Origin: Ignavibacteriota bacterium
GTDB taxonomy: Bacteria > Bacteroidota > Ignavibacteria > Ignavibacteriales > Melioribacteraceae
Direction: 5' to 3'
DNA length: 64,000 nt
Assembly (NCBI GenBank): GCA_002698995.1
Contig: PAAX01000035.1
Coordinates: forward strand, 67,050-131,049
The position numbers and the translations under genes are program-made. Under the pieces are notes generated by a model, which did no database searches, was not told the DNA's origin, and was given only the letters and a program-made list of their open reading frames with translations. How positions within the stretch are numbered: position 1 is the first letter of the stretch; every line of letters starts with the position of its first letter. Shown piece after piece: positions 3,612 to 63,609 of the stretch.

Positions 3612-4955
3612 TTAAAAGTTATACTTAACCTTTAAAAACATCTCATCAAAATCTTTAACATTGCTAAAAAGATTGTTCCCCTTACCGTCAATTAAATATG
3701 CACCGAGTGCTATTTCAAGACCGTCAAAGGGGTAATAATCTATTTCGGGACCTCCAGCAAGTCCGTAATTATCCCAAATATTTTTCCAGTCTATGGTAGA
3801 GAATACTATTCCAAATGGGATAAATTTTAGGGCATCATTTAAGAACTTCTTTTCAAACCGCACTAAGAAATAATCGTTTAGGTTTTCAGAACCTCTCTCA
3901 TGAATAAATCCGTGAAGAAATTGTCCATTCACATACCAGCCATTTGTAAAAGTATAATCTGCGCCAACTATATATTTAAAATATGGTTTGTCATCAAGAG
4001 CTATTTCCTGTTGTGTAACCATACCATATTCAGGATGTGGAAAAGTAATATCCACAAACTGTTTTTTTGGGATAAAAACAGCTCCCTCAGCCCAGAACCC
4101 TACATTGAAGATTGAGCCAGCTAAATCAGCACCAACAACTTGCATCCGTGGATAAGTCATTTCTGTGTGTGCATTCATTGTGCCGATTGTATCGATAGGT
4201 GTCATATTTACTTTAGTTAATAATGGAAGATCGTCTCTGCCATTGTAATAACTTAGAGAAACATCATAATCAAAAACATTCGTTTTAACTTTAAAAGCAA
4301 AGCTTTGTATTTCAGAAATTTTATTTTCAGGTAAAATAATTTTATCATCTATTGTGGCGATTGTTATACCAGGTGGCAAAGAAAAATCTGGTGTAAATGC
4401 TGTAATCCAATCACCATAAGGGAAAGCTCCTGGTGTAAAGATAGGAACATATACCCCTTGTAAACTGAAATCATCTAAATAATAAGTAGCAGAAACAGCA
4501 TCACTACCAAGATGTTCACCAAAATTAAAAATATCTTCAAGATCGTCAGGGTTAATGTTATCAGTTGGATTTATTCCATCAGCAGTTCCCCATGCGATAC
4601 GCTGACGACCGAAACGAACGTCTAAATTTTCATCAAATAGACCATACGCATCAATGTAAATCTCTCTTAATTCTAATCCCAAAGGTTGAGCATATACTTT
4701 GCTTTGAGATTGCAAGTCGGTCATACTATTTATATTTGGCGAACTAAAAGCACGAAGCCGAACTTCACTAAAATAATGGATATTGTAGGAGGGAGTACCT
4801 TCAAATTTTAGATTTAGTCTATTTTCATTCCAAGATAGTTTCCCATTCTGCTGAGTGCGGAAACGATTGTCTGTGCTTAAGTAACCATTTATACTAACTT
4901 GAGCATTGATTTGAATACTCACTATTACTAAAACAAAAAATATTATTTTTTTCAT
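3612..4955 (-). CDS. Outer-membrane beta-barrel protein (DUF1302-like)
   Basis: The start is set at ATG 4955, which has GGAG 5 bases upstream and opens a clear signal peptide (MKKIIFFVLVIVSIQINAQ); an upstream in-frame codon at 4982 has neither. The 447-residue mature region is full of alternating aromatic/polar strands and ends in KVKYNF, the usual C-terminal barrel signature. The stretch FGRQRIAWGTADGINPTDNI resembles the conserved block of DUF1302-type barrels that accompany MMPL exporters. It is the last gene of the lipid operon and could be the outer-membrane outlet. Confidence 0.7.
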   Translation of the reverse strand: MKKIIFFVLVIVSIQINAQVSINGYLSTDNRFRTQQNGKLSWNENRLNLKFEGTPSYNIHYFSEVRLRAFSSPNINSMTDLQSQSKVYAQPLGLELREIYIDAYGLFDENLDVRFGRQRIAWGTADGINPTDNINPDDLEDIFNFGEHLGSDAVSATYYLDDFSLQGVYVPIFTPGAFPYGDWITAFTPDFSLPPGITIATIDDKIILPENKISEIQSFAFKVKTNVFDYDVSLSYYNGRDDLPLLTKVNMTPIDTIGTMNAHTEMTYPRMQVVGADLAGSIFNVGFWAEGAVFIPKKQFVDITFPHPEYGMVTQQEIALDDKPYFKYIVGADYTFTNGWYVNGQFLHGFIHERGSENLNDYFLVRFEKKFLNDALKFIPFGIVFSTIDWKNIWDNYGLAGGPEIDYYPFDGLEIALGAYLIDGKGNNLFSNVKDFDEMFLKVKYNF

Positions 4956-5954: not shown

Positions 5955-7148
5955 TTAAATGATATTTAATTCCTTGCCAATTTTATGAAATATTTCAAGT
6001 GACTTTTTCAAATCTTCATCTGTATGTGTAGACATATAACTTGTTCTAATTAAAGCCTGGTCAGGCGGTACAGCCGGACTTAAAATTGCATTTGTGAAAA
6101 TGCCCGAATCATACAGCCTTTTCCAAAAATATAAAGTTTTTTCATCATCACGTATGAACAATGGTATTATAGGTGTGAGATTACTTTGCCCAATATCAAA
6201 GCCCATATCTTTAAACGAATTATGCATAAAACTTGAATTGTGGCTAAGTCTTTCCATTCGTTCTGGTTCCTCTTCAATAATTTCTAAAGATTTTAGAGCA
6301 GCGGCAGTTGCGGCTGGCATTGGAGCTGCGGTAAAAATTAGTGCTCTTGCAGAGTGTTTTATATAATGAATTACTTCTTCTGAACCAGCGACAAAACCAC
6401 CTATTGAGCCTAAGGACTTGCTAAAAGTACTCATCACTATATCTACTTTATCTTCTAATCCTAAATACTCACATGCACCTCGACCGTGTTTCCCTAAAAC
6501 ACCTAGACCATGTGCTTCGTCGATATAAATACGTGCCTCATATTTATTAGCAATTTCTGTCATTCGTTTTAGATTAACGATATCGCCTTCCATGCTAAAT
6601 ACACCATCGCTAACAATAATTTTCCCTTTTCCCTTATCAATGTTGGAGATAATTTGTTCCAAATCATTCATATCATTATGTCGGTATCTTTTAATATTTG
6701 CTCCAGTAGCAGCTTGAATGCCAGCATAGATAGATGCATGACAAGCTCTATCCATAATGATGTAATCATCTTTCCCGGCAAGAGCCGAGATAGCACCTAA
6801 ATTAGCCATGAAGCCTGTGCTGAAAATAAGTGCGGCATCTTTGTTCATAAATTTTGCTAATTTTTCTTCAAGTTCAATGTGTATATCTAATGTGCCATTC
6901 ATAAAACGTGAACCAGAACAACTGGTTCCATATTTTTCTGTAGCCTTTTTAGAAGCCTCAATTACACGTGGGTCGTGAGTTAATCCAAGGTAATTGTTTG
7001 AACCAATCATAATTGTTGAACGTCCATCCATTTCTACACGGGCACCATCATTGCCAGACAATGACTTAAAAAAAGGATACATTCCAGCGTCCATTATTTC
7101 TTTTGCACGTGTAAAGTTTTTACATTTGTCTAAAATATCCACATTCAC
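5955..7148 (-). CDS. spt: Alpha-oxoamine synthase, probably serine palmitoyltransferase
   Basis: A PLP-dependent fold-I enzyme of 397 residues. IYIDEAHGLGVLGKHGRG holds the Asp and His that contact the cofactor, and STFSKSLGSIGGFVAG carries the Schiff-base Lys. The N-terminal SNNYLGLTHDPRV and SGSRFMNGTLDIHIELE are family signatures. Overall pattern (MYPFF, SIGGF, IKHSARALIF) is closer to Bacteroidota serine palmitoyltransferases than to BioF or Kbl, so it likely condenses serine (or another amino acid) with acyl-CoA/ACP to give 3-ketosphinganine. Start is a GTG at 7148; no in-frame ATG precedes it. Acyl-handling neighbours support a lipid role. BioF remains an alternative. Confidence 0.75.
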   Translation of the reverse strand: MNVDILDKCKNFTRAKEIMDAGMYPFFKSLSGNDGARVEMDGRSTIMIGSNNYLGLTHDPRVIEASKKATEKYGTSCSGSRFMNGTLDIHIELEEKLAKFMNKDAALIFSTGFMANLGAISALAGKDDYIIMDRACHASIYAGIQAATGANIKRYRHNDMNDLEQIISNIDKGKGKIIVSDGVFSMEGDIVNLKRMTEIANKYEARIYIDEAHGLGVLGKHGRGACEYLGLEDKVDIVMSTFSKSLGSIGGFVAGSEEVIHYIKHSARALIFTAAPMPAATAAALKSLEIIEEEPERMERLSHNSSFMHNSFKDMGFDIGQSNLTPIIPLFIRDDEKTLYFWKRLYDSGIFTNAILSPAVPPDQALIRTSYMSTHTDEDLKKSLEIFHKIGKELNII

Positions 7149-17112: not shown

Positions 17113-19722
17113 TTACCATTCATAATAATATTCATCGTCTCTTCCATCGCTGTATTTATATCTTTTAATCTTTATTCCATACAGTTTTAATTGTCTGGTA
17201 AGTTTGGTAGGTGTAACCCAACCGTCATTTGTATGATAATAAGATTTTAGCAGAACTTCTCTCAAAACTTTTCTAGAACTAAGTTGAGTTTCTGTCATTA
17301 GAACATTTCTTTCATCCTTACCTAAAAAGTTATTTCCTTTCCTTGGGAAATTCTCATCAAACCAATTCCAATCATCTGTCTTTAACTTACTTGCAAATAA
17401 TTCAAACCTATTCATGCTTAATTCTTGTATACTTGCCTTCGCTTCATTTTCAATCACTTCATCAACTAATCTTACATCATAATTGTAATTAAGAAGATAT
17501 TGCGCGAAATCAACAAGCTCCTCATTTAATGAGGCGATAAAACCTTCTGCATCGGCTGCAAAAGATTTTACATTCTTCAACTTCCCACCGGTTTCTACAA
17601 CATTAAATCTTCTGTCATCAGTTTCGATAAGTATTGGTATAGCTTCATTACTAAAGAACATAATATTTGTAAAGTTGTCGATCTCAAAATTCTTAACATG
17701 TTTTTCGTTTATTATTATTTTTTCATCAGTAATTAGAGATTTAATCTTTGATTTTACACTTCTCTTTGTACTAGTATCATCATTTGCTACTTCATTAAAT
17801 GCAATAAAAAGCTTATTCATCATAAATCCATTAAAGTCGCTCTGAAGTCTTGCGTCATCAACAACCATCGTCTGTTTCTGACCAAATAAAGGTTTAATTA
17901 TATGGTCAAAGAATAGATTTTTACCAGATCCTTGTGTACCGGTAAAAACCCAAGAGGTTCTAGCTTTGTTAAGATTGGAAAAGATATAACTCAGCCAATT
18001 GATAAAGTGTTGTCTTTCACTATCTACGGGAATTAGATTTTTGATAAGCTGAAATGTTCTTGGACAAGTAACTTCTAAATCAATCTTTTCATTATCCTTC
18101 TTCTGAAACATATAGCTGGTTGGAGAAAATACGTTGAAGGACTTTTTCCAAATATTAAACCTATCTTCTCTATCATGGGGATTAAACTCAACCCTAAATG
18201 TTGGATAACGAGTAGGGCGGCCTAGATTATGATCCAACATTATTGCTTCTATGATCTTTTCATCAACTCCTAGACTTAAATTATCTTCTATACTATTGTA
18301 ATAACTCCTACTATTTGTGTTAGTGTCAATAAATGGAATAATTGGTTTATCAATCATCGACTTGGTTATATTATCCTTATTGATATCACGCTTGGATCTG
18401 ATAAGTTTCTTAAACGCTGGCAAAGTACCCTTGAAAATAGAAGATAATTCTGTGTGAAGTTCTGCAATGATACTTTCATCTCTAATCAATAGAAGAATTT
18501 CAAATATCTTTTCTTCCACTTTTTTCTTTTCAATCGGGTTCAACTTTTCATAATCACTAATCAACCCCTTCACAACCCAAAGAGCCCCGTGTATCGGTTT
18601 CTCCTTGATTATTGTTTCAAGTGAGTGAAGTCCATTAGCTCTAAAGTATTCATCTGGATCTTTGTAATTACCATACTCTAATGGATCAATAACATAAGGA
18701 ACAGTATTGCTGTTCTCCAAAATCATTAAAACTGCTTTCTCAGTATTAGCCGGTCCAACTCCATCATTATCAAATGATATAATTATGTTTTTAACCTTCT
18801 TAGAGCGGATACCATCAAGATGCTTTTTGCTTAGTAATCCTTGCCCGCCTGCCGTAACATTTTTAATCCCGCTGGCTTGGAAATAAAGTGCATCGGGATA
18901 ACCTTCTACAATTAGAATAGTTTCTTCTTTGGTATCTACTTTATCCAATCCAAATAAATCACCTTTTTTAGTTCCATAACTACTATCATAACGGGCATAT
19001 TTTAATTCACCATTTTTATCTGTGTATTCATGTCCCTTCCCTCCAACAAAACGTTTAACAATTCCAGTAATTATTCCATCACCATTATGGTACGGGAATG
19101 CTAATCTGAAGTTATCGCCGTGCGCACCTTGCAGAGGCAATTTAGAAATATCTTTCACCATATCTGGATATTGTGAAATCATCTCTTTTTTTATATCGAT
19201 TTCTTCTGGTAAATAAAACCATTCTGTTTTCTTTAGGATATCTTCATCATACTTTCTTTCGTTAATTAGATAATCTAATGCATCTTTCCCTTCTTCACCG
19301 TAAAGTTTAGTCTTCCCAATCTCAACTAACTTTTCAAAGACCATACTACGGCTGAACATATCTTTTTCTTCTTGAATCTGCTCTGGGGTTTGTTTGGGGA
19401 TGTTCTGGAGTTTTCCAAGATCAACTTTAAGGTGAAACTCATCTACTAACCATTTAAGTGATTCAACCTTATTTAATCCTTTTACTTCTTGAACCAATTG
19501 AATAGCATCACCATAGGTTTCACAGTTCCAGCAATGAAATCGTTTTAGATTATTATTTACATGAAATGAGTTCTTACTATTAGAGGAATGGCCGGTCGGA
19601 CAAGTTCCCGCGAATGAATTTCCTTGTTGATGTAATGTTGATCCTAGACGTGTAGCTACTTCTACGATATTTAGGCTATCGTTAACCTCTTGATAAATTT
19701 CCTTTTTGATTTTGTTTGACAT
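17113..19722 (-). CDS. DnaG-type primase fused to a D5/SF3-like helicase
   Basis: The start at ATG 19722 follows AGAGAAC; the frame is open to 19755. The 869-residue protein has a CHC2-type zinc finger (CPTGHSS...FHCWNC, about residues 40-75), a TOPRIM domain (LIVEGYPDALYF and IISFDNDGVGPANTEKAV, about 245-320), and a C-terminal ATPase with Walker A GTQGSGKN and Walker B LFIAFNEV. This is the replicative primase-helicase of phages, plasmids and satellites. It overlaps the upstream small gene by 41 bp, so the two are translationally linked. Confidence 0.85.
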   Translation of the reverse strand: MSNKIKKEIYQEVNDSLNIVEVATRLGSTLHQQGNSFAGTCPTGHSSNSKNSFHVNNNLKRFHCWNCETYGDAIQLVQEVKGLNKVESLKWLVDEFHLKVDLGKLQNIPKQTPEQIQEEKDMFSRSMVFEKLVEIGKTKLYGEEGKDALDYLINERKYDEDILKKTEWFYLPEEIDIKKEMISQYPDMVKDISKLPLQGAHGDNFRLAFPYHNGDGIITGIVKRFVGGKGHEYTDKNGELKYARYDSSYGTKKGDLFGLDKVDTKEETILIVEGYPDALYFQASGIKNVTAGGQGLLSKKHLDGIRSKKVKNIIISFDNDGVGPANTEKAVLMILENSNTVPYVIDPLEYGNYKDPDEYFRANGLHSLETIIKEKPIHGALWVVKGLISDYEKLNPIEKKKVEEKIFEILLLIRDESIIAELHTELSSIFKGTLPAFKKLIRSKRDINKDNITKSMIDKPIIPFIDTNTNSRSYYNSIEDNLSLGVDEKIIEAIMLDHNLGRPTRYPTFRVEFNPHDREDRFNIWKKSFNVFSPTSYMFQKKDNEKIDLEVTCPRTFQLIKNLIPVDSERQHFINWLSYIFSNLNKARTSWVFTGTQGSGKNLFFDHIIKPLFGQKQTMVVDDARLQSDFNGFMMNKLFIAFNEVANDDTSTKRSVKSKIKSLITDEKIIINEKHVKNFEIDNFTNIMFFSNEAIPILIETDDRRFNVVETGGKLKNVKSFAADAEGFIASLNEELVDFAQYLLNYNYDVRLVDEVIENEAKASIQELSMNRFELFASKLKTDDWNWFDENFPRKGNNFLGKDERNVLMTETQLSSRKVLREVLLKSYYHTNDGWVTPTKLTRQLKLYGIKIKRYKYSDGRDDEYYYEW

Positions 19723-20071
19723 AATAGTTCTCTGATTTAGATTCTGATAAAGCATTGTGTAAAATACTTTTCAGAGTGCGGATGTATGTACTGTAGCGCA
19801 TTGGTTTAACCCATCCGCTATCAGTATAATATTGGTCTACTAGATTTATAAGTTCATTATTTTTAATAAATCTAAATACCGAGATTGGCCCTTGTCTACG
19901 GTGCTCAACCAAATCGAGCCCCGAGGCCATCAAGAATGCAGACAGATAAAAGTCTTTATTCTCATAAAACTGCTTTTGTTGAATCATATTCTGATCTCCA
20001 CTGTTTTTATATGGATTATGCCCAGATATAGTGCTGGATACACTATTTCTCCTTTTTAGTTTATAAGACAT
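19682..20071 (-). CDS. Small element protein, DUF5659-like
   Basis: A 129-residue protein. The central part (FYLSAFLMASGLDLVEHRRQ, then SVFRFIKNNELINLVDQYY and STYIRTLKSILHNAL) resembles the DUF5659 pattern found next to replication genes in mobile elements. It has a basic N-terminus and no membrane segment. The gene overlaps the primase-helicase start, which suggests a role in replication. The family call is from memory. Confidence 0.55.
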   Translation of the reverse strand: MSYKLKRRNSVSSTISGHNPYKNSGDQNMIQQKQFYENKDFYLSAFLMASGLDLVEHRRQGPISVFRFIKNNELINLVDQYYTDSGWVKPMRYSTYIRTLKSILHNALSESKSENYYVKQNQKGNLSRG

Positions 20072-20316: not shown

Positions 20317-21156
20317 ATGCCTGAAAAAGAATACATAATCTTCTGTGATGAATCTGAAAAGTTTGGTAAGTACTATTCCAATTTTTACGGTGGTGCAATA
20401 GTCGGCGCTTCTAAGTATGAAAAAATAACAAACGTATTAAATTCTCTTAAAGAGAAACATAATTTTTACGGCGAAATAAAATGGTCAAAGGTAAGTGCAA
20501 ATTATCTTGAAAAGTATCAGAAGATTATATCCGCTTTTTTTAAGTATGTTGCTAAGGGTGATCTTAAAATTAGAATAATGTTTACGCAAAACCGCAACGT
20601 TATTAGGCAATTACTACCGGCTAAAAGGGACTTAGAATATTTTCTTCTATATTATCAATTTATTAAACACGCATTTGGTTTACGGTACATCCCTTTTCGC
20701 GATGAAGGAACGAGATTGCGCTTGTTCTTCGATGTTTTTCCTCACAAAAAGGAAAAAGTAGAACAATTCAAAGGATATCTTCTTGCATTGCAATCAAGCA
20801 AAGATTTCAAGGATGCTAATATCATAATACCTAAACAAGAAATAGCGGAAGTTGATTCTCACAATCACGTCATTCTGCAATTTACTGATTTAATTCTCGG
20901 CTCAATTGCTTTTAGGCTTAACGATAAACACAAAGAGAAAATTCCCGGTACACGTTTCAGAGGCAAAAAGACTTTAGCTAAAGAAAAATTGTATAAACAT
21001 ATCTTAAGCGAAATCTGCAAAATTAGACCGAACTTTAATATCGGCATTTCAACAAGCGAAAAAGGTGATAAGAAAAATAGATGGAACTATCCATATATGC
21101 ATTGGTTATTTGTACCAAAAGAATCTGAAGTCGATAAGTCTATTAAGAAAGGTTGA
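20317..21156 (+). CDS. DUF3800 protein (RNase H-like fold)
   Basis: A 279-residue DUF3800 protein. IIFCDESEKFG is the conserved N-terminal Asp-Glu-Ser, EIKWSKVS the second motif, LRLFFDVFPHKKEK holds another acidic residue, and SHNHVILQFTDLILGSIAFR the conserved C-terminal helix. The fold is thought to be nuclease-like and is common in mobile elements and defence loci; no substrate is known. It is divergent from the primase operon across a 245-bp A/T-rich gap that holds the palindrome GAACCA (20171)/TGGTTC (20191). Confidence 0.8.
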   Translation: MPEKEYIIFCDESEKFGKYYSNFYGGAIVGASKYEKITNVLNSLKEKHNFYGEIKWSKVSANYLEKYQKIISAFFKYVAKGDLKIRIMFTQNRNVIRQLLPAKRDLEYFLLYYQFIKHAFGLRYIPFRDEGTRLRLFFDVFPHKKEKVEQFKGYLLALQSSKDFKDANIIIPKQEIAEVDSHNHVILQFTDLILGSIAFRLNDKHKEKIPGTRFRGKKTLAKEKLYKHILSEICKIRPNFNIGISTSEKGDKKNRWNYPYMHWLFVPKESEVDKSIKKG

Positions 21157-21173
21157 TCTCTTTAAAATAAAAA

Positions 21174-21233
21174 AACCCCGCTTGTTCTACTCACTACCTG
21201 ACGCCTGACGTCAAGCTTCAAACAAGCCGGGTT
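21174..21233 (-). terminator. Hairpin after the DUF3800 gene
   Basis: AACCCCGCTTGTT (21174-21186) pairs with AACAAGCCGGGTT (21221-21233) with one mismatch. A seven-base A run precedes it on the plus strand, giving a T run only for minus-strand transcripts. It could also serve as an RNA 3' end for the DUF3800 gene. Confidence 0.5.
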
Positions 21234-21322
21234 AAAATCTTAACTAAAGATATACTTTTGACATTTTAGAGTCAATATCGGTTCCCAATAAATATACTGG
21301 TTTACCTGTCCTCTTCAATCCT

Positions 21323-37971: not shown

Positions 37972-38089
37972 AACCTATTCTTTTTGATCGCAAAGTCTTT
38001 ATTATGATTTTAAGAAAAAACCTAATATTTTTGAGGTAATAATCACTTTTAATTTTTGTAACTACTTAATTCAATTGCGCTGCTTAATT

Positions 38090-40555
38090 ATGAAAAAATA
38101 TAATAACGAAGAAGAAGTTAAGATTCATTTAGTTATTCCATGGTTGGAAAGCCTGGGATATAAAAAAAGTTTCATGGAATTTGAAAAAACAATTAAGGTC
38201 AACGAAGGGAGAAAAACAAAATCAATATTTGCTGATATAATTGTATATACAGATAAAAAAATGGAAACCCCTCTAATTGTGATAGATACTAAATCTCCAA
38301 CTGAAATTTTATCAAAAGAGGCAAGAGATCAAGTAATTAGCTATGCCAGATTATTACCAAAGATAGCTCCAATTGCAGTTTTGACAAACGGTTACCATTC
38401 TCAGGTATTTCAAACTCTTGATAAATCTAGAATAAAAGAAGTACCGTTAAGAAAAAATATTTTAAAGGATTTTGTTAGTGCTGTTCTAAGTAAAAATATC
38501 CAAGAGGCATTAAGAGACGAAGCAACTAAAGAATTATTTACGATAGATGATGTATCAACATTTAAGGAATTATTAAAAAAATGCCATAATATTATACGAA
38601 ATAATGAGGGATATGATCCCATTCAAGCTTTTGATGAGTTGTCAAAAGTTTTATTTGCAAAAATGTATGAGGAACAATTTAATCAATCTTCTAATAGATT
38701 TACAACTGAGATTTTTACAAAAACATTAAGTGAATTAAAGGTTAATATAGTTCAACAACAGTTTAGTGAAATTCAAAAAATAAATGATTTTAAGGAATTG
38801 TTCCCAGAAAATAATGTAATTAAATTAAAAGATAGAACAATTAAGGAAATAGTATCGATTTTTGAAAGCTATGATTTGACACTTACAAATTTTGATGTAA
38901 AAGGTGAAGCATTTGAATATTTTTTAGGTGATACTTTTACAGGCGGTTTAGGTGAATATTTCACCCCAAGAAACGTTGTTGAATTTATAGTAGAGGCAAT
39001 TTCTCCGAAAATTGGTGAAAAAATTGTTGATCCTTTCTGTGGAACCGGGGGATTTCTAATATATGCATTTGAAAAAGTTAGTGAAAAGATAAGATTGCAA
39101 GAATTTTCGGATTCCGAAAAACTTAAATGGAAAAAAGTATTGTCAAACGAATCATTATTTGGAACCGATTGGAAAGCAAGAACTGCGCAAGCCTGTAAAA
39201 TGAATATGATAGTTCATGGAGATGGTAATACTGGTGTTTTCCAACATGATGGTTTTAAAGATATTAAAAACAAAATTTTTGAAAATAAATTCGATATTTG
39301 CTTCACGAATCCACCTTTTGGAGCAACTGAAACAGACGAAGAAATACTAAATATGTTTGAATTGGGAAATGGTCGCAGTACACAAGCACGTGAAATTCTA
39401 GCAATTGAAAGATGTATTAGGTTAGTAAAAAAAGGAACCGGAATAGTTGCAATGATTGTCCCTGATGGTATTTTAAATGGAGATAGAAATTCCTATGTAA
39501 GAGAATTTATACAAAGAGAATGTACGATTCTAGGTATTATCGGTTTGAACAAAGAAACTTTCCAAGGTTACAATGCATCAGTAAAGACTTCTGTAATATT
39601 TTTAAAGAGAAAAGAAAATCCTAACGAAAAAATATCAGAAGATATATTTATGGCTGTTTGTACTAATTCAGGTTATGCCCCTACTGGTATTCAAGTTCCT
39701 GGTAACGAATTGCCAGATATTTTATATGATTTTAGAAACTTTTTAACTTCTAAAAGTGATAAACATTTATTTAAGTTTTCTAAAATTGTGAAAATTGAAT
39801 CCCTTGTTTCTAGATTAGACGCTGAACGCTACATAAATATTAATGATAATTTAAAAATTCATTCCACTAATCAAGTTATTGAAATATTTTTGAATGAAAT
39901 TGATATTCTTACTCGTAACTTTAAGAAAATAGAAACGAGCTTAAATAATTCTTTTAATGATAATGATTTTAGTTTCGTAAAAGTTGATAAAATATTTAAA
40001 CCAATAAAAAATTTAATATATCTCCATCCAAATCAAGAATATATGAGCTTGGGATTAAGTGGAAAAGGTAATGGAATATTTAACAAGGGTTCAATCTCTT
40101 CTAATAACATAAAAGCAAATAAGCTTAATCAAGTAAAAACAGGATGGTTTGTATATAGTAGACTATTTGCTCATAATGGATCTTTCGCTTTTGTTACCGA
40201 AGAATTTTCTGGTGGATTATTATCAAATGAATTTCCAACTTTCGAATTAATTTATAATAATTTTTTGAAAGATGATTTACTTGAGTATTTGTCATTTTAT
40301 TTTGTTAGTCCTCAAATTCTAGCTTTAATCAATAGGCTTACTACTGGTTCAACAAAAGAAAGTAGAGCAAGGTTTAAAGAGGAACAATTTTTAGAACTTT
40401 ATGCTCCAGTACCAAAAAACGAGGAATTGTTTAATAATATTGTCAAATCTATTAAGTTGATTAATAAATTTAAGAAGGATTTAAAATCTCTTTATTTAAA
40501 AATGGATGAGTTGCCAATATCTTTTGGACATTCGTTGCCATTTATGGAATTCTAA
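38090..40555 (+). CDS. Single-chain restriction-modification-specificity protein (type I-like domains, no helicase)
   Basis: The start is set at ATG 38090 (an upstream TTG at 38075 is possible; no clear ribosome binding site). The 821-residue protein has an HSDR_N-type nuclease domain at about 5-130 (ADIIVY and IVIDTKSP, with D...DxK), an HsdM-type N6-adenine methylase at about 265-540 (DPFCGTGGF, NPPFG), and an HsdS-like C-terminal specificity part (about 600-815). No SF2 helicase is present, so it resembles type IIG enzymes. It runs against the late operon, 2 bp from the end of the minor head gene, and looks A/T-richer than its neighbours. Likely a lysogen defence gene. Confidence 0.8.
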   Translation: MKKYNNEEEVKIHLVIPWLESLGYKKSFMEFEKTIKVNEGRKTKSIFADIIVYTDKKMETPLIVIDTKSPTEILSKEARDQVISYARLLPKIAPIAVLTNGYHSQVFQTLDKSRIKEVPLRKNILKDFVSAVLSKNIQEALRDEATKELFTIDDVSTFKELLKKCHNIIRNNEGYDPIQAFDELSKVLFAKMYEEQFNQSSNRFTTEIFTKTLSELKVNIVQQQFSEIQKINDFKELFPENNVIKLKDRTIKEIVSIFESYDLTLTNFDVKGEAFEYFLGDTFTGGLGEYFTPRNVVEFIVEAISPKIGEKIVDPFCGTGGFLIYAFEKVSEKIRLQEFSDSEKLKWKKVLSNESLFGTDWKARTAQACKMNMIVHGDGNTGVFQHDGFKDIKNKIFENKFDICFTNPPFGATETDEEILNMFELGNGRSTQAREILAIERCIRLVKKGTGIVAMIVPDGILNGDRNSYVREFIQRECTILGIIGLNKETFQGYNASVKTSVIFLKRKENPNEKISEDIFMAVCTNSGYAPTGIQVPGNELPDILYDFRNFLTSKSDKHLFKFSKIVKIESLVSRLDAERYININDNLKIHSTNQVIEIFLNEIDILTRNFKKIETSLNNSFNDNDFSFVKVDKIFKPIKNLIYLHPNQEYMSLGLSGKGNGIFNKGSISSNNIKANKLNQVKTGWFVYSRLFAHNGSFAFVTEEFSGGLLSNEFPTFELIYNNFLKDDLLEYLSFYFVSPQILALINRLTTGSTKESRARFKEEQFLELYAPVPKNEELFNNIVKSIKLINKFKKDLKSLYLKMDELPISFGHSLPFMEF

Positions 40556-47745: not shown

Positions 47746-47811
47746 CTTGGTTTGATACTTAAAAAATTGATTTCTCTTTTTTTACCTAATATTTTTAAGG
47801 TAAGTTGTTTA

Positions 47812-47868
47812 GTATAACAGACAGTTGATCGAGGCACAAAAAACGTGCTCGATAACTGTACGTTATGC
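47812..47868 (-). repeat. Integron attC-like site, 57 bp
   Basis: On the minus strand: GCATAAC ... GTTATAC ends, with ACAGTTATCGAGCAC pairing with GTGCCTCGATCAACTGT inside. The two arms differ by unpaired bases, as in attC sites. The stop codon of the cassette-like gene lies inside its first seven bases. Confidence 0.65.
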
Positions 47869-48093
47869 AGAATTTTTGGCTGCACCGTGATTATGTAAAA
47901 CTGAAATTGCACTTTTTGTGTTTTTAATATCTTCTTCTAATTTCGTCGTGTCTGTTCTTACGTCTGCCATTGCCTTATTTGATTCGTGCGGTGCAACAAT
48001 TCTATTCCACTCTTTTATTTCATTAAGTTTGTGTTGTAGTTCTGTAAGTTTTGACTCCAGCACAAATATTGGGTATTCTAATGTTGATTCCAT
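47863..48093 (-). CDS. Cassette-like small coiled-coil protein
   Basis: The start at ATG 48093 has GGA upstream; the frame is open to 48138 through the attC-like site. About 76 residues: two helices (LESKLTELQHKLNEIKEW and TTKLEEDIKNTKSAISVLHN). No family recognised. It lies precisely between two attC-like sites in the same orientation, as an integron gene cassette would. Confidence 0.55.
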   Translation of the reverse strand: MESTLEYPIFVLESKLTELQHKLNEIKEWNRIVAPHESNKAMADVRTDTTKLEEDIKNTKSAISVLHNHGAAKNSA

Positions 48094-48120
48094 TTTTCTA
48101 ATCCTTCCCGCCAAAAATCT

Positions 48121-48177
48121 GCATAACAAACGCATCAATTTGACCGATATTCATCGGTCTGCTTTGATGCGTTATGA
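48121..48177 (-). repeat. Integron attC-like site, 57 bp
   Basis: On the minus strand: TCATAAC ... GTTATGC ends, with GCATCAA and TTGATGC, then AGACCGAT and ATCGGTC inside, and unpaired AGC/AAA between. Length equals that of the site at 47812. The flanks GCCAAAA and TTTTGGC extend the symmetry. Confidence 0.65.
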
Positions 48178-48211
48178 GATTTTGGCTATTTAGTTTTAAG
48201 TTTTTCATTTT

Positions 48212-48247
48212 GTTATAGTCGGCAAATTATGCGCAACACCGTTATAA
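48212..48247 (-). repeat. Partial attC-like site
   Basis: After the stop of the 62-residue gene comes CAAAATTCTTTATAACGG, the same CAAAA-TTCT-x-ATAAC pattern that opens the other two sites. No matching right half is found, so it looks truncated. Confidence 0.4.
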
Positions 48248-48258
48248 AGAATTTTGGG

Positions 48259-48447
48259 CTAACTTCTGTCCCAATTTTCTTTTATTTCGTTTAATGTTTG
48301 TTCATTACTAAATCGTTTAACAAAAGATTCAAATTCATCGTAGTCTTCAAATTTGATTACTGCATTTTCACCAAAAAATATATAAACACCTCTTTCAACA
48401 ATGTCACCGTCTTTGTCATAAATATTTACTCCAAAACTTATTTCCAT
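48259..48447 (-). CDS. Cassette-like small acidic protein
   Basis: 62 residues, acidic (IYDKDGDIVERG, KFEDYDEFESFVKRF), with GGAG 8 bases before the ATG. No family recognised. The attC-like sequences begin directly after its stop, so it may be the first gene of a small cassette array. Confidence 0.55.
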   Translation of the reverse strand: MEISFGVNIYDKDGDIVERGVYIFFGENAVIKFEDYDEFESFVKRFSNEQTLNEIKENWDRS

Positions 48448-48483
48448 CTTATTTTCTCCAATTCACTCTATTATTAAATTTTG

Positions 48484-48897
48484 TCATACCTCACAAATCT
48501 CAACACCAACCAAAGGCTTTTCCGAGTAATACTTATCAATTCTTAAGCTCACAATTTGTTTATCATCCTCATAAGCAATTCCATTCAAACTGTCTGCAAT
48601 TATCTTAGCAATGTTATCTAAGTCCGGTTTTTTTGTTGGTCTTATTGATCTGAAAAGTGCCAGTTTCTTTTTGTGTGCTGAATAACTTTTTGGAATAGAT
48701 GTGTTAACAGTGATTCTCATTTCAATAGCACCCTTTAGTAAATCCAAACTTGGGTATTCACGTTTGAAAGAGAGCTTTACAAGGTTTTCATAACTTGCTG
48801 TTTTGTCCGGAGTGTAAGCCCCAGCAAAATCACCACGTCTAAAAAACTTCGGTCTTCCTTTTCCTCTCGCTTCACCCGGGATTTCAAATTTTATCAT
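48484..48897 (-). CDS. rusA: RusA-type Holliday junction resolvase
   Basis: A 137-residue RusA protein. GEARGKGRPKFFRRGDFAG is the basic N-terminus, and KKPDLDNIAKIIADSLNG with YEDDKQIV supply the catalytic Asp residues. It cuts branched phage DNA before packaging. It overlaps the ASCH gene by 4 bp. Confidence 0.85.
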   Translation of the reverse strand: MIKFEIPGEARGKGRPKFFRRGDFAGAYTPDKTASYENLVKLSFKREYPSLDLLKGAIEMRITVNTSIPKSYSAHKKKLALFRSIRPTKKPDLDNIAKIIADSLNGIAYEDDKQIVSLRIDKYYSEKPLVGVEICEV

Positions 48898-60194: not shown

Positions 60195-61448
60195 ATGGCA
60201 ATAGACGAACAAAATTTCGTATTAGAATTTAGGCTAGAAGATAACTTTGGAGAATTTTCTAAGACATTAAAAGGTCTTGATAATCTATCTGATTTCATTG
60301 AAAAAGAAAGTAATTATTGGAGTAAATTTAACAATCTTGGTTATATAAATTCGATTATCTACCGAAATGATGAAATTCAAAAACTAATAAAAAGTATCCG
60401 TGACATAGCAGAAAATAAAAAGCAATTTTCTCAAAATGAAAAGCAATTTGTTGAGAAAATAAACACCTTGCAGAGCAAGGTTTCTGAAAAACACATAAAT
60501 GGACGAAGTGAAATGCCAATTATGTATTCGAACACTGAACTTGCAGAAACTTATATAAGTTTAGCCTCCATAGAAGCAAATTATGCAGAAAACTTCATTA
60601 ATTATTTAAACAATAATAGAAATGGTCACATTCAAACCAATTATAAATCCTTAATTTCTTTGATTTCTGCGGCTGTATATAGAGGAGATATTAATTTTTC
60701 TCAAAGGGCAATTAAATATGAAAATAAAATTAGAGTAATAGTTGATGAGTATAAAAATAACCTAGATAAGTTTAGTAATGAAAGTAATGAAATTAAATCT
60801 AAATTTATATCTGAATTCAAAGATAGAAAGGAAGAAATTAAGAATTGGTTTGAGAAAGAAAAAAAATATATAGAATCCGAAAAAAATCGAATAGGAACTG
60901 AATTTACAGAATTAAAAAAGTTTGCAGAAGGAAAAGTCAACGAAAACGAACATCTTTTTAGAGAAAAATTAATGTTAGAAAAGCCAGTAGAGCACTGGGA
61001 AACTAGAGCTAAATACCTAGAAAGAGAAAACAAAAAATGGCTTTTCACATTTGGGATGGGTATTGCAATTGCAATTATAGCTCTTACAGCTATTCTTTAT
61101 TTTCCCCCGGACATATTTAAAGTTGGGTTGGATGGGAAAATAAAACTAGAAAATATCAAAGGAGTTATTCTGTTTGTATCAATTTTGTCGCTATTCGGAA
61201 TTTTTATAAAAGTACTTTCAAAACTAACCTTTAGTAATATACATTTAATGAGGGATGCCGAAGAAAGGAAGATGTTAACTTATTTTTATTTATCGCTTAA
61301 AGTTGAAACAAAAGATATGGGAGATGAAGAAAGGAAACTGATTCTACAATCATTATTTAGTACAGCTGACTTTGGAATTTTAACAAAAGAATCTGGACCA
61401 ACTATGCCAGGAATAACAGAATTAATTAAAAGTGTAAATGGTCATTAA
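60195..61448 (+). CDS. DUF6161-like membrane protein
   Basis: 417 residues: a long helical and coiled-coil cytoplasmic part (about 1-275), two transmembrane helices (WLFTFGMGIAIAIIALTAIL; GVILFVSILSLFGIFIKVL), then a conserved tail (HLMRDAEERKMLTYFYLSLK, ERKLILQSLFS). The layout matches DUF6161. Coiled-coil plus two-TM proteins in prophages often act in exclusion or abortive infection. It ends inside the integrase start (1-bp overlap). Confidence 0.6.
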   Translation: MAIDEQNFVLEFRLEDNFGEFSKTLKGLDNLSDFIEKESNYWSKFNNLGYINSIIYRNDEIQKLIKSIRDIAENKKQFSQNEKQFVEKINTLQSKVSEKHINGRSEMPIMYSNTELAETYISLASIEANYAENFINYLNNNRNGHIQTNYKSLISLISAAVYRGDINFSQRAIKYENKIRVIVDEYKNNLDKFSNESNEIKSKFISEFKDRKEEIKNWFEKEKKYIESEKNRIGTEFTELKKFAEGKVNENEHLFREKLMLEKPVEHWETRAKYLERENKKWLFTFGMGIAIAIIALTAILYFPPDIFKVGLDGKIKLENIKGVILFVSILSLFGIFIKVLSKLTFSNIHLMRDAEERKMLTYFYLSLKVETKDMGDEERKLILQSLFSTADFGILTKESGPTMPGITELIKSVNGH

Positions 61449-62635
61449 TGGCATCAATCTACACACAGAAAAATAGTCCTTACTACTGGATAAGATATTA
61501 CGATATTCTTGAGCATGAACCTTCAAAGAAAAGGAAATCTCTTAACAGCAAAATTCCTATTACTCCTGCAGATCAACGAAGAATAGAAGAAGCCAAAAAG
61601 AAAGGGGATAAACCGGAATTACAAGGAACTCCTGAACTAAAGAAAAGACTTCGAGAATTTAAAACCGGACTTGCAGAAAGGAACATGCAAGCAAAGAGCG
61701 GAGTGAAGTTAATTAAGAGGCTAACACTTTCTGAAGGATATAAAGAATTTAAGGAAGCAAGATCAATTCCTGGAAGTAAAAAGTATTTAAAACCAAAGAC
61801 CTTTCAAAGCTATGATATAGCAGTGAATCATTTCGTTGAAATAGCAGGGGATAGGTTGATTTATAAATACACAGAAAACGATTACGTGAAACTTCTTTAT
61901 CATTTTGAAGAAAAGGAATTATCAAGAAATTCCAGATCAATCTATACAAGGTCACTTCATGCTTTATGGAAATATTTTGTTGATCAGTTTTATACAAATC
62001 AAAATATCATTGAGACAATTGAACCGGAAGAAAAAGACCCTGATCCAATTTTACTTGAGGATATGTATGTTATAATTCAATACTTAAAAGAGGATAAGAG
62101 TTATCCTCATCATTACTGGATAATTTATTTTATGCTTTTAACCGGATGCAGACCAAGCAGCGCAATTGTGCAGCTTAAGGAAGATATAGACTTCAAAAGA
62201 AAACGAATTACAATTAAAAACGTAAAAGCCGGCGGAAAAAAAGGGAAGCCGTTTTATAGATTTCCATTGTACGCTGAATTAAAAAATCTAATTGAAGAAA
62301 TGGGAGTTAAACCGGGAGATACTGGAAGGTTGTTTGATATGTACACAATAGTTCCGGAAAATTATACTTGGCCATTAAGTTTTTGGGACAGGAAAATAGG
62401 ATTCCTTCTTAAATCTAAAAGCATAGAAAGGAAATACACTCTTAAACAGATTAGACCAACCTTAGCAAGTTTCTTAATAAATGTTCTTAAGATGGATATT
62501 TACACAGTAAAGAAATTACTAGACCATGCAAATATCAAAATCACAGATAAAAATTACGTTGATTTCAATGTGAACACAGCTAGAAAAGAATTGGATGATG
62601 TTACATTGGAAAGTTTTTTGGATGAAGGAGAATAA
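61448..62635 (+). CDS. int: Tyrosine recombinase (phage integrase)
   Basis: 395 residues with an N-terminal DNA-binding part, a SAM-like core-binding domain (about 100-185), and the catalytic domain: TGCRPSSAI (Arg I), KKGKPFYRF (Lys), LKQIRPTLASFL (box II Arg), KKLLDHANI (His/Trp position), KNYVDF (Tyr). The His of the usual HxxR is Lys here. The gene lies about 900 bp from attR in tRNA-Asp. Confidence 0.85.
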   Translation: MASIYTQKNSPYYWIRYYDILEHEPSKKRKSLNSKIPITPADQRRIEEAKKKGDKPELQGTPELKKRLREFKTGLAERNMQAKSGVKLIKRLTLSEGYKEFKEARSIPGSKKYLKPKTFQSYDIAVNHFVEIAGDRLIYKYTENDYVKLLYHFEEKELSRNSRSIYTRSLHALWKYFVDQFYTNQNIIETIEPEEKDPDPILLEDMYVIIQYLKEDKSYPHHYWIIYFMLLTGCRPSSAIVQLKEDIDFKRKRITIKNVKAGGKKGKPFYRFPLYAELKNLIEEMGVKPGDTGRLFDMYTIVPENYTWPLSFWDRKIGFLLKSKSIERKYTLKQIRPTLASFLINVLKMDIYTVKKLLDHANIKITDKNYVDFNVNTARKELDDVTLESFLDEGE

Positions 62636-63535: not shown

Positions 63536-63609
63536 CGGGGCCGACGAGACTCGAACTCGCGACCTCCTGCGTGACAGGCAGGCGTTCTAACCAACTGAAC
63601 TACGACCCC
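63536..63609 (-). tRNA. tRNA-Asp(GTC)
   Basis: A full cloverleaf of 74 bases on the minus strand. It starts GGGGTCG and ends CGGCCCC plus discriminator G, with anticodon GTC at 63575-63573 in loop CTGTCAC and TTCGAGT in the T-arm. CCA is not encoded. The acceptor stem has one T-G wobble, while the displaced copy at 24969 would pair perfectly. It is the prophage attachment site. Confidence 0.95.

Follow-up and report, generated by a model that had tools for sequence, protein, structure and literature searches.

The locus described here raises the question of whether a temperate phage carries part of an integron cassette array and, if so, by what route that DNA entered the phage genome. The stretch of DNA that we analyzed (64,000 nt, referred to here as the window) contains a prophage in which two strong palindromes and two small genes are found between a gene for a RusA-like resolvase and the next gene of the phage operon. 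A sequence-only reading had interpreted these elements as integron attC sites with gene cassettes. Our analysis supports that interpretation and amends its anatomy: there are two sites, their polarity is opposite to that of the genes, and an integron integrase is encoded elsewhere in the host genome. We consider it very probable that the 689-nt segment between the RusA-like gene and its neighbor is a cassette-array fragment of the kind termed CALIN. Within it are two attC sites, one complete cassette (a 76-codon gene with attC-B), and a second gene of 62 codons. A CALIN is defined as two or more attC sites lying within 3 kb, with no integron integrase nearby (PMC9892861, in the portion of that paper available to us), and this is the arrangement of the prophage segment, in which attC-A and attC-B are separated by 252 nt. 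The segment is not a complete integron with intI and attI beside the array; a search of the window for an integron integrase found none. Coordinates of all features are given in Table 1.

Table 1. Features of the prophage and of the cassette segment, in window coordinates. A slash marks the cut in R' boxes.
Feature	Position	Strand	Length	Basis or remarks
attC-A	47812..47868	+	57 nt	Covariance models, strict template, fold z
attC-B	48121..48247	+	127 nt	Model R2, written-out pairing, strict template
Complete cassette, G/TT cut to G/TT cut of the two R' boxes	47863..48241	+	379 bp	76-codon gene and attC-B
76-codon gene	47863..48093	-		Coiled-coil-like; stop inside R' box of attC-A
62-codon gene	48259..48447	-		Past attC-B in + direction
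Segment absent from IMGVR_UViG_3300017698_000302	47807..48495		689 nt	13 unaligned nt in the relative
96-codon phage gene	47455..47745	-		Downstream neighbor in operon order
RusA-like resolvase gene	48484..48897	-		Upstream neighbor in operon order; PF05866 (1.6e-31), phrog_140
Primase-like gene	17113-19755			One end of prophage record
Phage integrase gene	61448-62635			Near other end of prophage record
tRNA	63536-63609			Close to phage integrase gene

The prophage corresponds to IMG/VR record IMGVR_UViG_2778261489_000003, which is identical to the window over the compared stretch and spans about positions 17113-63441 of it (coordinates extrapolated). One close relative was found, IMGVR_UViG_3300017698_000302, and in it the RusA gene is followed directly by the 96-codon gene; the DNA missing there includes both attC sites and both small genes. 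By blastn, the flanks of the segment are 91.7% and 97.9% identical to this relative, and other aligned blocks are 78-99% identical. The segment is thus an insertion relative to IMGVR_UViG_3300017698_000302 or was lost there, alternatives between which one relative cannot decide. Two other genes of the region deserve mention. At window positions 20317-21235 we detected a DUF3800 gene on the plus strand, immediately followed, on the other strand, by a match to the DUF3800-VIII RNA (45.7 bits). An 826-codon protein with an N6 methylase domain and a type I restriction N-terminal domain is encoded inside the prophage at 38075-40555 (+), on the strand opposite to that of the neighboring structural genes.

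Both 57-nt palindromes named in the sequence-only reading are present, at 47812-47868 and 48121-48177, and fold better than 200 of 200 shuffles on either strand (z from -4.5 to -6.1). A scanner that searched for boxes ending in AAC and starting with GTT around a stem returned, with a cutoff of -0.20 kcal per base, these two loci alone in the 64 kb and nothing in 40 windows resampled from the dinucleotide content, which is what served as shuffles for this scanner and for the template described below. Run without an energy cutoff, the scanner gave two weaker matches elsewhere in the window. The first palindrome is a whole attC site, as had been proposed. The second is not; it consists of only the R''-L'' arm of a longer site, attC-B, together with a local hairpin. 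A supposed truncated third site turned out to be the L'-R' arm of attC-B, and on its own it folds at chance level (z 0.62). The three-site reading was dropped, given that 48121-48247 is the extent both of the better model match and of the pairing when written out.

In attC-A, the boxes are R'' GTATAAC, L'' ACAGTT-(G)-ATCGAG-(G)-CAC, L' GTG-CTCGAT-AACTGT, and R' GTTATGC (extrahelical bases in parentheses), and single-strand folding of the site gives z values of -4.5 and -5.4. In attC-B, they are R'' GCATAAC, L'' GCAT-(C)-AATTTG-(A)-CCGA, L' TCGG-CAAATT-ATGC, and R' GTTATAA, with 14 Watson-Crick pairs between L'' and L', two extrahelical bases, and five of six outer pairs between R'' and R'. Both sites therefore have an R'' box ending in AAC and an R' box starting with GTT, with outer complementarity, and in both the L''/L' stem is broken by two extrahelical bases on the L'' arm. 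On the plus strand, these bases are C and A in attC-B and G and G in attC-A; those usually found are G and T on the bottom strand, i.e., C and A on top (PMC2727003, available part). The G and G of attC-A count against its reading as attC, as do its partly paired spacers. Inside the L'' arm of attC-B is the local hairpin (48129-48173), which is the lowest-energy fold of the plus strand of the site, at -20.0 kcal/mol versus -4.0 kcal/mol for the attC fold; this, too, weighs against the CALIN reading.

The identity of the sites was assessed with two covariance models. Model R1 was built from 17 aligned attC sites, all from outside the window, which were given the attC structure; they came from a class 1 integron plasmid, from phages TJE1, P12002L, and M16-3, and from integron loci reached through integrase searches. 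These training sites were chosen by a palindrome scan and oriented by the side of their extrahelical bases, an orientation that agrees with the annotated gene direction in three loci (L262, L263, and L265). Over the window at E<=10, R1 matched 47812-47868 with 33.1 bits (E 7.5e-5) and 48121-48177 with 16.5 bits, both on the plus strand, compared with at most 9.4 bits on the minus strand at the same two places. We ran the same model on 92 integron and control loci of a collection of 267, from which copies of the window, viral loci with RusA, and others (short or duplicate integrase loci and control L261) were left out. It gave 57 matches at E<=1, scoring 20.3-74.2 bits; 17 of these are the training sites, and two loci (L053 and L260) have one and the same site. 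The 16.5 bits of attC-B, of which R1 covers only 48121-48177, fall under all 57 control matches (20.3 and up), another point that weighs against the CALIN reading. Two TJE1 sites outside the training set scored 38.6 and 32.7 bits with R1; attC-A thus scores like the sites of TJE1, a phage with experimentally assayed attC sites (PMC9892861), which may or may not include these two.

Model R2 was built from the 57 matches, none of which comes from the window. With filters off, it matched 47812-47868 with 32.2 bits and 48121-48247 with 28.3 bits (E 8.1e-5), and the next-best match in the window had 10.6 bits. Ten long sites from the integron of a genome of the same family as the host (L242) and from host contig C8 scored 11.9-40.6 bits with R2, a range that includes attC-B. 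Scores like those of known sites were therefore reached by attC-A with R1 and by attC-B with R2. The sequence-only reading had staked itself on such scores, and models made from outside sites do give both loci good scores, with no other notable match in the window. At E<=10 with default filters, R1 had no matches in 79 viral loci with a RusA relative (802,762 bases; the 80 RusA loci without L151, which is this prophage), and R2 had none in 80 viral loci (815,038 bases; the same set plus L150). Model searches of the host's own genome gave one site each among the best 150 of 260 and the best 150 of 335 candidates; these searches missed attC-A despite its 33 bits in the window, so absence from them means little.

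A pairing template (4 pairs, an extra base, 6 pairs, an extra base, and 3 of the 6 inner pairs), derived from the attC structure assigned to the R1 training sites, was also applied; its last arm was shortened to three pairs in knowledge of attC-A. At 13 of 13 pairs it matched attC-A and attC-B only in the 64 kb, on the plus strand only, and nothing on either strand of 30 resampled windows; at 12 or more pairs there were three matches in the 30 resampled windows. The template is strict and misses many known sites: it matched 4/6 in L265, 1/3 in L263, 4/6 in L242, 1/7 in L073, 0/4 in L275, and 0/2 in L090, figures that are match counts without pairing of each match to its site, and it had no matches on the opposite strands of the control loci. 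Because the outside-trained models and the template single them out, we take both loci as attC, and 47812-47868 and 48121-48247 are two well-supported attC sites in a prophage. An initial working reading, in which the cassettes were placed on the minus strand, was rejected, as the strand of the model matches, the side of the extrahelical bases, and the template all give plus.

Because each cassette in an array begins with the final bases of the preceding R' box, its start is expected to be complementary to its own R'' side. This is the case for the 379-bp cassette, for which 10 consecutive complementary bases link start and own R'' side, against 5 for the start of the following cassette. Counted across 20 positions, there are 15 own matches and 14 next matches, which are close because the two starts resemble each other, and only the run of consecutive matches separates own from next end. 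According to the accessible part of PMC2727003, self-pairing of most cassettes can reach 9-11 nt. In 21 control stretches between neighboring detected sites of five arrays, 15 reach 8 own matches (0/3 in L275) and 1 reaches 8 next matches; that 6 of the 21 fall short of 8 own matches was counted against the CALIN reading.

The small gene expected between the palindromes is there, with 76 codons from an ATG at 48093 and its stop within the GCATAAC box; the open reading frame listing begins it at an upstream TTG, and we used the ATG. Both small genes read in the direction of the phage operon, on the minus strand, as had been noted. Codon scores favor these frames over the overlapping plus-strand open reading frames, at 0.38 versus -0.19 for the 76-codon gene and 0.51 versus -0.27 for the 62-codon gene (reference, 0.36 with a standard deviation of 0.12, from 70-codon windows of 64 long open reading frames). 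With attC sites on the plus strand and coding on the minus strand, the genes are antisense in their cassettes. A gene usually, though not universally, lies on the strand of its attC site; neither gene does so, and this departure from the usual arrangement was counted against the CALIN reading.

By sequence comparison, both genes are near-orphans. Among 391 genomes of the class, the 76-codon protein matched only itself, and the 62-codon protein matched itself and one other, weakly (E 0.0075, 24% identity). Neither protein had a match in plasmids; in phages, the 62-codon protein had none and the 76-codon protein had four weak Rhizobium-phage matches (E 0.02). These matches, and one of the 76-codon protein to EzrA (E 0.0004, below the Pfam cutoff), were set aside as coiled-coil similarity. 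Scans of viral contigs with either protein, by a method that reaches close relatives only, returned this prophage alone. Single-sequence AlphaFold models have two helices for the 76-codon protein (pLDDT 87) and three strands and two helices for the 62-codon protein (pLDDT 88); a fold search with the latter model against PDB and BFVD returned nothing at E<=0.001. The finding that the sequence-only reading had named as fatal to it, conservation of the segment as ordinary phage DNA in many related prophages, is opposite to what we observed, namely, absence from the sole close relative found and two proteins with almost no relatives.

The sequence-only reading had also noted the lack of an integron integrase, which holds for the window; elsewhere in the genome, one is encoded at G000:C20:94784-95722, near the contig end (TIGR02249, 446.6 bits; cutoff, 265). 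It is the only TIGR02249 match over the cutoff in the genome, and of its 341 residues, 32-341 can be aligned with the solved Vibrio IntI4. Among named full-length proteins, those closest to it come from Melioribacteraceae or Melioribacter (72-73% identity) and from a Bacteroidetes MAG (70% identity); these relatives are the basis for calling the host Melioribacteraceae-like. Melioribacteraceae lie within the Ignavibacteria, a class of which 294 genomes were examined; integrase matches at E<=1e-70 occurred in 54, and 53 of these exceed the cutoff. In six assemblies (the host, G000:C20, and G019, G029, G049, G157, and G222), contigs end within a few hundred bases downstream of intI; these breaks are consistent with arrays located 3' of intI, as in L242. 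An early scan of 20 intI neighborhoods found no convincing attC site, because it was too strict and had a 130-nt limit, which most native sites exceed; the model later turned up a site of 67 nt in L260 and another, weaker site in L244.

Host contigs C3 and C8 contain long attC sites, several of which are weak by model and have host-type ends. A TTAT..GCAAC.CCGTTA end is common to attC-B, to the L242 sites downstream of intI, and to the host sites on C3 and C8, and the 3' end of attC-B has two mismatches to the host-type pattern TTAT(T/G)(T/G)GCAACGCCGTTA. No exact match to the host-type L' end turned up in a scan of viral contigs, and a pattern search of the host's own genome for the shared 18-nt extension of the box gave 32 matches versus 21 for the reversed control. 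A local L'' hairpin like that of attC-B is found in some long L242 sites (z -4.6 and -4.0) and not in others.

The host arrays contain genes of interest in their own right. On C8 (L275, 4404-6914), two attC sites, 6692-6914 (11.9 bits, with matching ends) and 4404-4623 (29.7 bits), enclose a complete Thoeris pair composed of ThsA, which has SIR2 and STALD domains, and the TIR protein ThsB; a further TIR protein and a GIY-YIG protein are encoded in the neighboring stretches. On C3 (L274, 8408-9219), a Phd/YefM-ParE pair is antisense to an adjoining weak attC site (15.7 bits), an arrangement of gene and site similar to that of the antisense genes in the prophage. Transposases that resemble the IS110 family are encoded near attC sites at L275 1028-2044 and L274 11287-12606. 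In another locus (L009, 11959-12646), a small transposase-like gene lies between two palindromes with core AAACCTCCGAGGTTT, an arrangement resembling a REP/RAYT unit.

We propose that, when single stranded, attC-A and attC-B would fold via their L and R boxes and offer two extrahelical bases to IntI, and that recombination between the G/TT of the two R' boxes could excise or swap the 379-bp cassette, which may still be mobile. The likely enzyme would be the host's own chromosomal IntI. Since the genes are aligned with the phage operon, phage transcription would express them, antisense to attC as they are, and they might act as moron-like accessory genes of benefit to the phage or the host. The ends of the segment do not prove insertion by IntI, and gain here and loss in the relative are not separated. 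Three entry routes remain: normal capture by IntI followed by trimming, entry of an array fragment without IntI, and insertion of an inverted two-cassette circle.

Entry without IntI is a real, if tentative, candidate: a piece of a host or plasmid array, with cassettes cut at both ends, could have been brought in by illegitimate or homologous recombination. The paucity of bases preceding attC-A at the left end (in plus polarity), the absence of an attC site after the 62-codon gene, and junctions that are not clean R boxes are all features expected of such a piece; the intact 62-codon gene facing along the operon, and a left edge that falls at a GTT triplet, are not.

An inverted insertion seems to us rather doubtful. 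A circle of two whole cassettes would have recombined through the top strand of attC-A, at R'', with a secondary site resembling GTTATAC where rusA ends. That the array would thereby have been flipped, so that antisense cassette genes became sense genes in the phage operon, is equally doubtful, as is the assignment of one attC site to each gene that it entails (attC-B to the 76-codon gene and attC-A to the 62-codon gene). Such an event would explain both the one site per gene and the direction of the genes along the operon. Read on the minus strand, the segment begins with G/TATGAC and ends with the G/TTATAC of attC-A. The latter site is nearly symmetrical and has none of the usual extrahelical bases, which makes weak strand choice plausible. 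In the available parts of the respective papers, top-strand recombination was scored at R'' (PMC2727003) and secondary sites with a GNT core accept insertion (PMC10127599). Against this route, it leaves five bases (TAAAC) at the edge away from rusA unaccounted for, and the expected box is one T short. Moreover, among the rusA ends that we compared (21 of 80 RusA loci), that of a homologue in L153, a locus in which no attC site was found, also reads GAGGTATGA, so that the edge of the segment may be ordinary rusA sequence; we therefore rejected the rusA-side edge as proof of an R' box. It is unlikely that the host integrase itself inserted a reversed two-cassette circle via the top strand of attC-A and so made genes that are silent (antisense) in the host array expressible from the phage operon. 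If true, inverted insertion would give phages a way of converting cassettes into accessory genes.

It is likewise improbable that the segment is ancestral and was lost by the related phage. Only a single close relative is known, and the distant RusA homologue ends like the gene in the window, both of which fit loss; the viral-contig scans described above, within their reach of close relatives, returned just this prophage, and the other viral loci examined gave no attC. That the palindromes are ordinary phage hairpins, either terminators or a MITE around the 76-codon gene, that resemble attC by chance is very improbable: although both palindromes are strong and intergenic, the local hairpin is the lowest-energy fold of 48121-48247, and the 76-codon unit ends in inverted repeats in the fashion of a transposon, models trained on outside sites and a template with two extrahelical bases pick these sites in one polarity, the L' end is like that of host-type attC sites, cassettes in known arrays usually have ends with extended complementarity (15 of the 21 controls; PMC2727003, available part), and no long copy was found elsewhere in the genome, where, apart from the locus itself, the remaining 20 of 21 matches are 17-31 nt long with E 0.009 or more (among the best 40 of 113 candidates).

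The CALIN reading places the prophage segment among three sets of known systems. Class 1 cassettes, as in Escherichia coli plasmid pE15-1 (L265), share with the prophage cassette the presence of R and L boxes, two extrahelical bases in the same places, and extended end complementarity (in four of five cassettes); in contrast, the prophage segment has no resistance genes and no known integron promoter or attI alongside, and its genes are antisense. Complete integrons are mentioned in Ignavibacteriae in the available text of PMC9024848. The chromosomal integrons of Ignavibacteria resemble the prophage segment in the end of attC-B and, in some long sites, in the local L'' hairpin; they differ from it in site length (127 nt for attC-B, whereas the ten sites from L242 and C8 measure 187-226 nt), and the prophage segment has no integrase alongside and carries antisense genes.

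A further parallel is with the CALINs of phages. Few examples of phage-borne integron cassettes are known, and the statement of the sequence-only reading that phages with cassette arrays are rarely noted is fair, yet phage CALINs were surveyed and partly tested in 2023: a set of 10,705 phage genomes yielded 17 CALINs, and IntI1 recombined five of the six sites that were tested (Qi et al. 2023, PMC9892861, as far as the text was available). The present case was not found reported in the literature searched, mostly at the level of titles. Like the prophage segment, the phage CALINs described in the available text have at least two close attC sites in a phage genome and no integron integrase; attC sites of divergent direction are described there in phage P12002L, and one attC site of phage TJE1 has the R boxes of attC-A, GTATAAC/GTTATGC. 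Phage-borne cassettes having already been reported, the prophage segment is a further example and no new kind of system. It differs from the cases described in the accessible part of PMC9892861 in belonging to the prophage of a Melioribacteraceae-like host, in having a close phage free of the segment, in its antisense genes, and in the presence of a host integrase and attC sites in the same genome. Here, the phage copy, the segment-free close phage, and the host integrase with its arrays (one with the Thoeris anti-phage pair) can be examined together, which makes cassette exchange between chromosomal integrons and prophages directly testable.
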